From Sphingobium sufflavum (GTDB lineage: Bacteria > Pseudomonadota > Alphaproteobacteria > Sphingomonadales > Sphingomonadaceae), in contig NZ_JAJSSH010000002.1 in NCBI RefSeq assembly GCF_021403115.1, positions 62,001 to 126,000 of the forward strand: 64,000 bases of DNA, read 5' to 3'. The stretch's first letter is position 1. Each line of letters opens with the position of its first letter. The position numbers and the translations under genes are program-made. The notes below the pieces were generated by a model that searched no databases, was not told where the DNA came from, and saw only the letters and a program-made list of their open reading frames with translations. This document shows, piece after piece, positions 36,052 to 54,107 of this stretch.

Positions 36052-37062
36052 TTGACCGAGCCAACTTCCGCCCCGACGCTTGATATTGTCGCCATCGGCA
36101 ATGCCATCGTCGATGTGATCGCCCGTTCGGACGATGCCTTCCTGGCCACCCACAGCCTCGTCAAGGGTGGCATGCAACTGGTCGATACGGCGACGGCGGA
36201 ACTGCTCTATGCCAATATGGGGCCGGGGATCGAGGTGTCGGGCGGGTCCGCCGCCAACACGCTGGCCGGCATGGCCGCGCTGGGCCGGTCCTGCGCCTTC
36301 ATCGGGCAGGTGCGCGACGATGGGCTGGGCAAGGTGTTCAGCCATGACATTCGCGCGCTGGGTATCCGTTTCGACACGCCCCCCCGGACGGAGGAGCCGC
36401 CGACGGCCCGCTGCCTCATCATGGTCACGCCCGACGCGCAGCGCACGATGAACACTTTCCTCGGCGCGGCGCAGCACCTGCCGCCCGCCGCCATCGACCA
36501 TGACCTGATCCGCTCGGCCCGCGTGCTGTATCTGGAGGGCTATCTGTGGGATCCGGAGGAGCCGCGTTCCGCCATGCGCGCCGCCATCGCCACCGCGCGC
36601 GATGCCGGGCGGGAGGTCGCCTTCACCCTCTCCGACGCCTTTGTGATCGAGCGCTATCGCGACGATTTCAACGCGCTTCTCGACGAGGGGCTGATCGACA
36701 TCCTCTTCGCGAATGAGGTGGAGGTCGCATCGCTGACCCAGCTTGCCGATTTCGACGCGGCGGTCGCCGCCATCGCGCCGCGCGTGTCCACGCTCGTCGT
36801 CACACGCGGCGAGGCGGGCGCGATCGCGGTCAAGGGCGGTGAACGCTTCGAATGTGGCGCGTTCCCGGTGGCGGAGGTCGTGGACACGACCGGCGCGGGA
36901 GACCTGTTTGCGGCGGGCTTCCTCAGCGGCCATATCGCGGGCCGCTCGCCAGTGGACAGCCTCGCCATCGGCGCCATCGCGGCGGCGGAGATTATCAGCC
37001 ATTATGGCGCGCGCCCGGAGGCCGACCTGAAGGCGATGACGGGCAGTTTCCTGACGGCCTGA
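36052..37062 (+). CDS. PfkB-family carbohydrate/adenosine kinase
   Basis: The 336-residue cytosolic protein is a ribokinase-like (PfkB) kinase, closest in pattern to adenosine kinases: GNAIVDVIARSDDAFL at the start, SGGSAANTLAGMAALGRS in the substrate site, and VDTTGAGDLFAAGFLSG with the catalytic Asp near residue 284. The start is TTG 36052: AAAGGAC lies 5 nt upstream, while the nearby ATG 36047 is out of frame and stops at once. It lies 36 bp after the efflux operon but its function does not suggest a link. Confidence 0.88.
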   Translation: MTEPTSAPTLDIVAIGNAIVDVIARSDDAFLATHSLVKGGMQLVDTATAELLYANMGPGIEVSGGSAANTLAGMAALGRSCAFIGQVRDDGLGKVFSHDIRALGIRFDTPPRTEEPPTARCLIMVTPDAQRTMNTFLGAAQHLPPAAIDHDLIRSARVLYLEGYLWDPEEPRSAMRAAIATARDAGREVAFTLSDAFVIERYRDDFNALLDEGLIDILFANEVEVASLTQLADFDAAVAAIAPRVSTLVVTRGEAGAIAVKGGERFECGAFPVAEVVDTTGAGDLFAAGFLSGHIAGRSPVDSLAIGAIAAAEIISHYGARPEADLKAMTGSFLTA

Positions 37063-37112
37063 CTCTACGTTTCTCAGGAAAATGATTTTTCCCGAAAAAA
37101 ATGCGGGGGTGC

Positions 37113-37138
37113 GGAACCAAAGCCGTACCTCCGCCGTT
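37113..37138 (+). promoter_or_regulatory. EcfG-type (general stress sigma) promoter, GGAAC-N17-CGTT
   Basis: GGAAC at 37113-37117 is followed after exactly 17 nt by CGTT at 37135-37138. This matches the consensus GGAAC-N16/17-CGTT known for EcfG/SigT sigma factors of alphaproteobacteria. The expected start site is near 37145. No annotated gene begins downstream before the converging gene that ends at 37515; the sequence that follows is instead rich in stem-loops. The match is read directly; activity is an inference. Confidence 0.65.
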
Positions 37139-37144
37139 ATACAG

Positions 37145-37376
37145 TCTCCATCGCACGGAAATCGATCCGAGATCTGGATGATGGAGAAGCGGAAGATCAG
37201 AGATTCGGAAACGAATATCGGTCATCCAAGGGAGCCCCGCCGCCACTGGTGACGGGGCTTACCCTTTGGGAGAGGATGCCCATAGGGCGCACCGTCCAGC
37301 AGGACGGGCGACCGGCCAGCGACTGGCACCCCGGTAAAAGGCCCCCCGGAAAGGGTGGGCAGTAAAGTCGCTTTTT
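37145..37376 (+). ncRNA. Candidate structured small RNA in the pfkB / GGDEF-EAL convergent gap
   Basis: Downstream of the EcfG-type promoter I can draw a continuous series of hairpins: CTCCATC (37146-37152) with GATGGAG (37180-37186); ATTCG-GAAA-CGAAT (37203-37216, a GNRA loop); CCAAGGG+AGCCCCG (37226-37239) with CGGGGCT and CCCTTTGG (37253-37269); GCCC-ATA-GGGC (37278-37288); CCGTCC-AGCA-GGACGG (37292-37307); ACCG-GCCAG-CGA-CTGGC with CGGT (37311-37335); and GCCCCCC-GGAAA-GGG-T-GGGC (37341-37360), with TTTTT at 37372-37376. The gap is 452 bp (37063-37514). A 24-codon frame at 37178-37252 exists but uses codons unlike the neighbours. I recognise no known RNA family (not 6S, tmRNA, RNase P or SRP RNA). 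Confidence 0.5.
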
Positions 37377-37514
37377 CCTGAACAGTTTTGCCTGCTTACC
37401 CGGTTTGCGCGGGCTTTGCGCTGATTGGCGTCTGCCTGTCGTGGGGCGCTCAGTCGTGGGGTATCATATTCGTCAGCCATAAGCGTGCTGGACGTATCTG
37501 CCGTGATCGGCTGG

Positions 37515-39725
37515 TCAGCCCTGCGCCCGATTGCGAAGCGGCAGGTTGTCGCCCTGCCCGCCATCTCCGCCCCGCTCGCTGTCCCCGTCGCGGCCCAGCC
37601 GTGCCACTGTCTCTGCCAGCATTTCGGGCGCCACGGGCCGTCCATGCAGCCAGCCCTGCATCCGGTGGCATCCGCACGCCTTGACCAGCGCCGACTGGTC
37701 CTGCGTCTCCACGCCTTCCGCCGTGATTTCCAGCCGGAGCGCGCGGCCCAGCGCGACGATGGCGACCAGCATCTCTGCCGCGCCTTCCCCGACGTCGCCG
37801 CTGGCGGCCGCGTCGGACACGAACTGCTTGTCGATCTTCAGCCGGTCGAACTTGAGCTGGCGCAGATAGCCGATGCTGGCAAAGCCCGACCCGAAATCGT
37901 CCAGCGCCAGCCGGATGCCCAGTGTGCGCAATTCCTCCATCACACCCGCCGCCGCATCGGGCCGCCGCATCAGGTAGTTTTCGGTGATCTCCAGCTCCAG
38001 CCGGTCGGCGGGAAACGCCTCTTCCTTCAGGATGCGCGCAACGGAGTCGACCAGATGCGCGTCCCAGAATTGCGCGGGCGACAGGTTGACCGCCAGCCCG
38101 ATGTCGAAGGGCGCGACGGCGCGGCACGCCTTGGCCAGCACCTGCTCGCCCAGCGCGCCGATCAGGCCGGTCATCTCCGCCAGCGGGATGAAGACATCGG
38201 GCGGGATCATCCCCTCGCGCGGGTGGGTCCAGCGGGCCAGCGCCTCGAAACAGACGATGCGGCCTGTCGCGGCGGACACGATCGGCTGATAGGCGACGTC
38301 GATGCCATTGGCGGCGATGGCGGTGCGCAGGTCATGCTCCAGCCGCTTGCGCACGTCATGGCCGGTGTCCATCCCCGCCGCATACAGGTGCCAGCGATTC
38401 TTGCCGCGTCCCTTGGCGCTGTACATGGCCACGTCCGCGCGGCGCATCAGCTCGTCCACGGTCAGCGCGCAATGGCGGGGCGTCGTCACCACGCCGATGC
38501 TGACCCCGACCCGCACATTCGCGCCGGAGATGGCGAACGTCTCCTGAAAGCCGTCGATGATCCGTTGCGCCAGCGCCGATGCGTCATGGCCCCGGCCGTC
38601 GGCGGCCAGCACGGCGAACTCGTCACCGCCCATGCGCGCGACCAGCGCATCCTCCCCGGCGAGGGTGGCGATGCGCACGGTCGCGGCGCGCAGCAGGTCG
38701 TCGCCCGCGCGATGGCCATACAGGTCGTTGACCTCCTTGAACCCGTCCAGGTCCATGTAGATCAGGCCGACCGCCCGCCCATCCAGCAGCCGCACCCGCA
38801 CCCGTTCCAGCAGGACACGCCGGTTGGGCAGGGCGGTCAGCGGGTCGTGATCGGCATTATGGACCGCATCCGCCCGGCTGCTGCGCAGCGCGTCCATCGC
38901 CTGCCCACCCTGCCGCACCACCGATGCGGCGACCAGCGCGGACAACAGGATGATGAGGATCAGGCCGGGCAATATCTGGTCGCGCAGCCGTGATCCCGGC
39001 GTTCGCACCGCCAGGTCGACATGCGCCAGCGTGCGTCCACGAAAATCGGTGAGGGGGACGGCGCCCCGGTCCTGCCGCACGGTCAGCCCGACCAGTTGGT
39101 GCGCCTTGCGCAGCCGGGTCAGGAACGATCCGTCCACCTCATTGGCGATGGCCAGCACATATTTGCCGCCGGGGGGCAGCGTGACCTTGTGGGTCAGCGG
39201 AACCACCGCCGCCACGGCATAGATATAGAAATGGTCGCCCTGCCGGGTGAAGCCGCTGATCGACGGGGAATGGGCGGGGTCCATCCGCCGCACCGCCGCG
39301 ATGCTCTCCGCAAAGGCGGGACCGAACAGCTCCGTCGCACCCTTGCCCGCGCTGGCGCGCGACAGGCTGCCATGGCTGAACGCATAGGGGGTGCTGCCGT
39401 CGGGCGCGATGACGAAGACATGGTCATAGCCCTGCGTCCGGCCCAGATAGGCGGTGACATTGTCGTCGATCCAGTCGGCGTCGAAATCGCGCGCGATGTG
39501 GCGCACGGCGTCGTCCCACATCGCATAATCCTGAAGATCGCGGCGCACCATGTCGACGTTTGTCCGCAGCGCGGCGGTCAGCGTGCGCGCCTCCCGCGCC
39601 GCCTCCATCCGGTCCTGCGAGGAGGTGGTGACATAGAGCAGCGCCAGGATACTGCCAAAGCAGAGTCCGACCAGGGCGAGCAGGGGCCAGAGATACTGGC
39701 CGGGGATGCGGCGTAACAATGACAT
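37515..39725 (-). CDS. Membrane CHASE4-GGDEF-EAL protein (cyclic di-GMP turnover)
   Basis: The 736-residue protein has an N-terminal membrane helix (about residues 11-31), a periplasmic CHASE4 sensor (about 45-240, with DYAMWDDAVRHIA), a second membrane helix (about 245-270), a GGDEF domain with an intact GGDEF at residues 366-370, and an EAL domain with EAL at 494-496, DDFGSGFASIGYL and QGWLHGRPV. The motifs of both catalytic domains look intact, so it may make and degrade c-di-GMP. It ends with a Gly/Asp-rich tail. The ligand is not known. It lies 86 bp downstream of the flippase gene on the same strand; a shared regulation of surface polymer and motility is plausible. Confidence 0.92.
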   Translation of the reverse strand: MSLLRRIPGQYLWPLLALVGLCFGSILALLYVTTSSQDRMEAAREARTLTAALRTNVDMVRRDLQDYAMWDDAVRHIARDFDADWIDDNVTAYLGRTQGYDHVFVIAPDGSTPYAFSHGSLSRASAGKGATELFGPAFAESIAAVRRMDPAHSPSISGFTRQGDHFYIYAVAAVVPLTHKVTLPPGGKYVLAIANEVDGSFLTRLRKAHQLVGLTVRQDRGAVPLTDFRGRTLAHVDLAVRTPGSRLRDQILPGLILIILLSALVAASVVRQGGQAMDALRSSRADAVHNADHDPLTALPNRRVLLERVRVRLLDGRAVGLIYMDLDGFKEVNDLYGHRAGDDLLRAATVRIATLAGEDALVARMGGDEFAVLAADGRGHDASALAQRIIDGFQETFAISGANVRVGVSIGVVTTPRHCALTVDELMRRADVAMYSAKGRGKNRWHLYAAGMDTGHDVRKRLEHDLRTAIAANGIDVAYQPIVSAATGRIVCFEALARWTHPREGMIPPDVFIPLAEMTGLIGALGEQVLAKACRAVAPFDIGLAVNLSPAQFWDAHLVDSVARILKEEAFPADRLELEITENYLMRRPDAAAGVMEELRTLGIRLALDDFGSGFASIGYLRQLKFDRLKIDKQFVSDAAASGDVGEGAAEMLVAIVALGRALRLEITAEGVETQDQSALVKACGCHRMQGWLHGRPVAPEMLAETVARLGRDGDSERGGDGGQGDNLPLRNRAQG

Positions 39726-54082: not shown

Positions 54083-54107
54083 AACGCGGCAAGTGGGTAC
54101 GCGTTCC
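54083..54107 (-). promoter_or_regulatory. EcfG-type promoter of the hybrid histidine kinase, GGAAC-N16-CGTT
   Basis: On the minus strand, GGAAC (54107-54103) and CGTT (54086-54083) are separated by exactly 16 nt, matching the EcfG consensus in full. Transcription would start near 54076, giving a leader of about 73 nt before the kinase ATG at 54003. The adjacent 246-bp gap (54004-54249) also has to drive the Nudix-DUF47 gene on the other strand; I see no clear promoter for that one. Confidence 0.65.

Follow-up and report, generated by a model that had tools for sequence, protein, structure and literature searches.

A putative small RNA behind an EcfG-type promoter in Sphingobium sufflavum and its candidate family in the Sphingomonadaceae

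Does the gap between two converging genes of Sphingobium sufflavum encode a regulatory RNA of the general stress response? The original prediction placed in this gap, which lies in a stretch of 64,000 nucleotides (the window), an undescribed RNA of about 230 nt behind an EcfG-type promoter. Our analysis indicates, with a probability of roughly 0.83, that the feature is the gene for a trans-encoded sRNA of about 120-125 nt (~37145-37266) and represents a divergent local member of a Sphingomonadaceae family.

Promoter, fold and extent of the window RNA

The PfkB-type kinase gene ends at 37062 and the converging CHASE4-GGDEF-EAL gene at 37515, confirming that the intergenic gap between them is free of genes. 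Using a pattern search of the window, we also recovered the predicted GGAAC-N17-CGTT on the + strand at 37113-37138, where the sequence reads GGAACCAAAGCCGTACCTCCGCCGTT (Table 1). Taken alone, this promoter match is weak evidence for an sRNA. In the window, GGAAC-N16..18-CGTT was seen twice versus 0.74 expected, and 14 of 100 shuffles reached two sites. The whole genome contains 39 sites of GGAAC-N16/17-CGTT versus 68 for the backward-read control, which means that the EcfG-type motif is not enriched genome-wide. At this frequency (39 sites, both strands, 4.43 Mb), about 0.0004 exact sites are expected per 100 nt of one strand. About 80 nt downstream of the second exact motif of the window (GGAAC-N16-CGTT, 54083-54107, - strand) begins a large gene (54003-50716; named by eye) for a PAS/GAF-type histidine kinase that has a receiver domain, and this motif may be a real EcfG target.

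The original prediction described a series of stems that ends next to a T-run, and this run (TTTTT, 37372-37376) is present in the sequence. The 232 nt of 37145-37376 fold at -113.6 kcal/mol (z -5.66), and none of 200 shuffled sequences folded as well, which bears out the stems for the region as a whole. The reverse strand of this region also folds well (z -3.05, 1 of 200 shuffles). When the region was divided, 37145-37266 reached z -6.1 (0 of 300 shuffles as good) and 37267-37376 a modest z -2.1 (7 of 300), compared with a mean z of -0.4 (sd 1.1) for 60 random 110-nt stretches of the window. The 5' half, comprising the first 122 nt, carries the strong folding signal. The hairpin loops in the window fold are AUC, GAAA, and ACU.

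Hairpin 3, which recurs in relatives, is the signature of the family and likely the 3' end of the RNA. A terminator scan called no terminator-like site in 36900-37600, which means that it does not call hairpin 3 a terminator either. The tail that follows hairpin 3 in the window (UUACCCUUUGGG) is U-poor, so that read-through is possible. Downstream of the RNA, 37267-37376 contains several short, tidy hairpins without a convincing homolog.

Table 1. Features of the putative sRNA gene in the window.
Feature	Position	Strand	Evidence
-35 element GGAAC, EcfG-type promoter	37113..37117	+	sequence, pattern search; 46 of the 52 homologous loci share the exact promoter
-10 element CGTT, spacer 17	37135..37138	+	sequence, pattern search; same 17-nt spacer at the exact site in L203
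Predicted transcription start	37144..37147	+	promoter geometry, about 6-9 nt past the -10 element
Hairpin 1	37145..37187	+	longer than in relatives, two internal loops; z -4.3 for 37145-37188, 0 of 300 shuffles
Hairpin 2, GAAA tetraloop cap	37191..37227	+	z -3.2 for 37189-37227, 1 of 300 shuffles; covaries in relatives
Hairpin 3, terminator-like stem	37228..37266	+	z -3.0 for 37228-37270, 4 of 300 shuffles; BLAST matches, 52 GTDB loci

Relatives at other loci

The original prediction looked to the same locus in related genomes for homologs; synteny gave none there, and homologs came from wider searches. BLAST of the 452-nt gap in 60 relatives returned no true homolog, and its one other match (L002, 25 nt) was rejected as looking by eye like a murF coding region. 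The same query against 62 loci, including 29 kinase loci of other genomes, gave only its own copies and L002, and no homologous RNA was located downstream of the kinase gene. A single close ortholog of the convergent EAL protein was identified (58%, L034); beside it, the gap BLAST found no RNA similar to that of the window. With the single-sequence model R1, 8 of 94 genus genomes matched at E up to 1, namely that of the window and seven with E 0.04-0.55. Extending the gap BLAST to 298 family genomes gave matches at E 0.01 or better in 20 genomes besides the window's own. Seven of these, from other genera (L072-L076, L081, L082), match window positions 37222-37270 (best 97% over 34 nt, E 6.2e-9), and in each of them the same strand carries GGAAC-N16-CGTT, whose end lies 61-74 nt ahead of GGGAGCC. 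Plasmid and phage collections contained no match.

A GTDB-wide scan with hairpin 3 alone (AGCCCCGCCGC, gap, GACGGGGCTTAC), which held no promoter information, returned 52 loci. By their record titles, counted by hand, 24 come from Sphingopyxis, 18 from Sphingomonas, two from Hephaestia, and one each from Rhizorhapis and Sphingobium, the remainder being four unclassified Sphingomonadales/Sphingomonadaceae, one 'Proteobacteria bacterium', and one MAG labelled Zavarzinia; 50 of the 52 bear sphingomonad names. Since the loci were found with its letters, the conservation of hairpin 3 among them is partly by construction. An exact GGAAC-N15..18-CGTT ends 63-81 nt before AGCCCC in 46 of the 52 loci, one of which has a second site at 129 nt, whereas of 5000 positions drawn at random from these loci, 3.9% had an exact promoter within 260 nt upstream. 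The other six loci (L096, L099, L102, L110, L117, L133) show near matches to the promoter by eye. The 52 loci hold 49 distinct RNA sequences and are therefore not all independent.

The family loci contain two further hairpins between the promoter and hairpin 3, and conservation in relatives stops at hairpin 3 (about 37266 in the window). As read from these sequences, the family layout is an EcfG-type promoter, a covarying hairpin 1, a variable covarying hairpin 2, and a conserved terminator-like hairpin 3. The loop of hairpin 1 is A/G-rich in the family, and its cap motif ATCGAAAG, which played no part in finding the 52 loci, occurs in 35 of 51 distinct members versus about 0.0008 expected per member; the cap is a candidate functional element of the RNA. 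A[TA]CGA was seen in 48 of the 51, a weak signal for a motif of five letters. Neighbouring genes of the family loci vary between lineages (crude frame calling); L084, L091, L104, L110, L112, L113, L119, and L122 share converging genes, by eye electron-transfer flavoprotein genes. A hidden protein in the RNA is unlikely, since a closed frame of at least 15 codons inside the transcript occurs in 9 of the 51 distinct members and RNA lengths differ by single bases between members. The RNA seems to be present twice in at least two Sphingopyxis-like genomes: one strain with L108 and L117, the latter with a very different hairpin 1, and G617 (84.0 and 67.7 bits).

Covariation in relatives, a check suggested with the original prediction, is seen in hairpins 1 and 2 across 44 members. 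This alignment (A4), which misaligns hairpin 2 between two main groups, comprises 44 of the 51 distinct sequences, the window, L094, L095, L097, L117, L121, and L126 being left out. The three-hairpin structure pairs 89.1% of its cells versus 83.6% after shuffling, with two-sided changes in 13 of 27 pairs (7.6 shuffled) and 83 cells (23.8 shuffled), and none of 500 shuffles was as high in any of five covariation measures. Moving the partners by 1-3 columns left 37-52% pairing. Two-sided change affects 5 of 6 pairs in hairpin 1 and 8 of 9 in hairpin 2; in this set none is seen in hairpin 3, which is partly by construction. The model-fitted alignment A5 covers 68 matches, counting one spurious reverse-strand R3 match in L127 (32.1 bits), and here 6 of the 12 pairs in hairpin 3 plus its extension change on both sides. 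Examples are L190, in which a C-G has become a G-C pair, and L188, in which a C-A mismatch has become a pair. The recurrence of promoter and hairpins in the 46 loci and the covarying stems provide good comparative support for the prediction that a general-stress sRNA follows the EcfG-type promoter.

A held-out test used model R3, from whose construction the window was excluded: R3 recovered the window at 37.3 bits (E 1.3e-7; next match E 2.5). The independence of this test is incomplete, since the pattern that yielded the R3 loci came from hairpin 3 of the window. Among 397 family genomes, at least 59 match R3 at E 0.01 or better, the weak matches including generic terminators; nine candidates per genome were scored, so that members may be missed. 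In 296 genomes of the order, all R3 matches at E 0.001 or better lie within the same family, except G049 (29 bits). Model R2 scores the window hairpin 3, which was in its training set, at 60.8 bits, and gives generic terminators weak matches of 20-27 bits. In the window's genus, R2 found hairpin 3 above 28 bits in 2 of 94 genomes, that of the window and G087. Among the 19 other R2 genus matches that were fetched, the promoter is present in L137 and absent in 13, and L143, L145, L148, L152, and L154 (near contig ends) were not scored. The window's genome contains one exact copy of hairpin 3.

Many of the strong loci from the model searches were repeats of earlier ones, but 11 loci at 51 bits or more were new. 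Nine of these have GGAAC-N15..18-[CG]GTT at the expected place; it is absent there in L166 (66.8 bits) and L168 (62 bits), and likewise in L193. When 30 R3 loci were fetched, this promoter stood at the expected place in 13 of 15 above 50 bits and in 7 of 15 below 40 bits, the window among the latter. L171, L172, L177, L180, L181, and L184 look like more divergent family members, and their altered caps behind an EcfG-type promoter suggest that the RNA has diversified across the family. L174, L175, L178, L179, L182, L183, and L185 (R3 below 40 bits) were rejected, having no promoter in the place tested. L176, also below 40 bits, has none in that place and a promoter-like match further inside. 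By eye its EcfG-type motif is exact and is followed by a single middle hairpin and by a hairpin 3 whose stem differs in sequence (GCCCCGGCAAC/GUUGCCGGGGC); it is a possible shortened relative.

The window copy stands apart from most members: 60 of the 68 matches in the model-fitted alignment score 51-119 bits, compared with its 37.3. It retains the promoter, hairpin 2 with its GAAA cap, and hairpin 3. Its promoter lies 94 nt before AGCCCC versus 63-81 nt in the 46 exact-promoter loci, and it has AUCGAUCCGAGA where the family has AUCGAAAG. Hairpin 1 of the window is longer and contains AUCGA (A[TA]CGA) but neither AUCGAAAG nor ATCGAAAG. The first position of R3 aligns at 37163, inside this hairpin, with middling posterior values, which means that the model does not confirm window hairpin 1; its homology to hairpin 1 of the family is suggestive only. 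Given the longer hairpin 1, the 94-nt promoter distance, the missing AUCGAAAG, and the failure of R3 to place hairpin 1, membership of the window copy rests on promoter, hairpin 3, strand, and order.

Stress regulators and possible modes of action

The genome encodes NepR (32 bits, Pfam cut-off 25.7), the gene of which lies on a different contig from the window and adjoins a PhyR-like gene and a histidine kinase gene (both named by eye). Among the 16 sigma-70-type matches in the genome are two EcfG-like sigma factors, which share 62% identity and show weak similarity to the PhyR-like protein. For one of them, the best PDB match is 5uxx (E 1.2e-42), listed as an RNA polymerase sigma factor, which we take to be Bartonella EcfG; 2lfw (PhyR sigma-like domain) was also matched, and the gene has an exact GGAACC-N17-CGTT about 300 nt upstream (L203). 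Both proteins pass the NCBIfam sigma70-ECF superfamily cut-off, other names being generic and below cut-off, so that the EcfG label rests on similarity and context. By eye, nepR and the second EcfG-like gene have near-consensus promoters (GGAACC with GGTT or TGTT; L194 about 1120-1145, L200 about 1365-1395 of the reverse strand), suggesting that they are autoregulated. A tblastn search of the window and the 52 loci (each up to 8 kb) with the genome's own PhyR-like, NepR, and two EcfG-like proteins found no PhyR, NepR, or close EcfG relative, the sole match being a distant sigma-like one (about 30%) in L115.

Judged from sequence comparison, the RNA probably represents a new, stress-induced family, with about 122 nt in the window, and is best explained as free-standing and trans-acting. 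In the established pathway, phosphorylated PhyR releases the EcfG sigma factor from NepR during stress. Upon this release, EcfG-RNA polymerase would transcribe the RNA from GGAAC-N17-CGTT and transcription would end at hairpin 3. The RNA would then base-pair with several mRNAs and adjust their translation or stability, like GsrN in Caulobacter; pairing is proposed here by analogy with GsrN and other stress sRNAs.

Instead of pairing with mRNAs, the RNA could work chiefly by binding a protein such as Hfq or ProQ, with the hairpin 1 cap and hairpin 3 as the binding elements. Its best conserved parts are indeed structured ones (hairpin 3 and, in hairpin 1, the AUCGAAAG cap), and the window fold shows no obvious open C-rich stretch of the GsrN kind. 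We nevertheless regard this mode of action as unlikely, as no known protein-binding site was recognised and pairing with mRNAs is the usual mode for sRNAs under stress sigma factors.

Distinctly improbable is an RNA that is real but longer, running for about 230 nt to the T-run at 37376 with hairpin 3 internal and leaky here. More short hairpins in 37267-37376, the fold of the whole 232 nt, and the tail weak in U after hairpin 3 would fit such a transcript, as would 15 short BLAST matches (E 0.001-0.009) to window positions 37277-37337 versus roughly three expected over 298 genomes. However, the four of these matches that were viewed (L077-L080) sit in open frames of 546-1010 codons and thus look like G+C-rich coding sequence, the stretch 37267-37376 folds just modestly better than shuffles, the terminator scan calls nothing at 37376, and the conservation in relatives stops at hairpin 3. 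The length given in the original prediction is therefore revised to end at about 37266, the later part having a modest fold and no convincing homolog. An ordinary shared terminator with a chance promoter match, and nothing specifically made from the locus, would agree with a genomic motif no commoner than its control and with the 20-27 bits of generic terminators in R2, but is very improbable given one exact genome match of the specific hairpin 3 and a promoter at near-fixed distance in 46 of 52 copies elsewhere.

The trans-encoded sRNA that we favour can be compared with GsrN of Caulobacter, an EcfG/sigma-T-controlled sRNA with a separate gene (PMC5869019). Both have an EcfG/sigma-T-type promoter (in the window RNA, as a motif only), a separate gene, and, for the window RNA by expectation, a general stress role. 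Unlike GsrN, from whose description it is set apart, the window RNA has no exposed C-rich 5' loop, is not near ecfG-nepR-phyR, and belongs to another family of bacteria. According to the accessible text on GsrN, EcfG-regulated sRNAs are prevalent in Alphaproteobacteria, with GsrN-like RNAs proposed in Rhizobiaceae; BLAST matches of GsrN are limited to Caulobacteraceae, with no apparent gsrN-like gene in Erythrobacter litoralis; and predicted GsrN homologs typically lie near ecfG, nepR, and phyR, C. crescentus itself being the exception (PMC5869019). EcfG and non-coding RNA in Rhizobium etli are treated in PMC3892343, PMC3188799, and PMC4167512. MicA and RybB, sigma-E-dependent sRNAs of E. coli (PMC8103513), are, like GsrN (PMC5869019), stress-sigma-factor sRNAs that pair with mRNAs. 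Compared by description, the window RNA resembles them as the RNA arm of an ECF sigma factor regulon and differs in sigma factor and bacteria.

SuhB/mmgR (RF00519) is likewise an alphaproteobacterial sRNA reported from a sphingomonad, Sphingopyxis granuli TFA (a title in the reference lists of PMC7083833, PMC7713065, and PMC11165598). The window RNA differs from it, its match being sub-threshold and on the opposite strand (15 bits versus gathering 41), and RF00519 at gathering had no match in the window or 16 member loci. Searching Rfam 15 gave no gathering-score match in the window or these loci either, in agreement with the predicted undescribed RNA.

Published EcfG promoters are GGAAC-N16-CGTT in Sphingopyxis granuli (PMC7083833) and GGAAC-N17-20-GTT in Sphingomonas melonis (PMC6599016). 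Keyword searches of these two main texts turned up no regulatory RNA of the general stress response, 'non-coding RNA' appearing only in one reference title, and the accessible parts of PMC7713065 and PMC11165598 name non-coding RNA only in references. A description of the sphingomonad RNA family was not found in a literature search of mainly openly accessible papers, and an sRNA family with an EcfG promoter in sphingomonads is apparently not yet described.

For the general stress response of sphingomonads, the proteins involved have been studied well in Sphingomonas melonis Fr1 and Sphingopyxis granuli TFA. With its defined promoter, structure, and genome list, the recurring RNA allows a direct test of whether this response includes a post-transcriptional arm, and the family alignment could seed an Rfam family.
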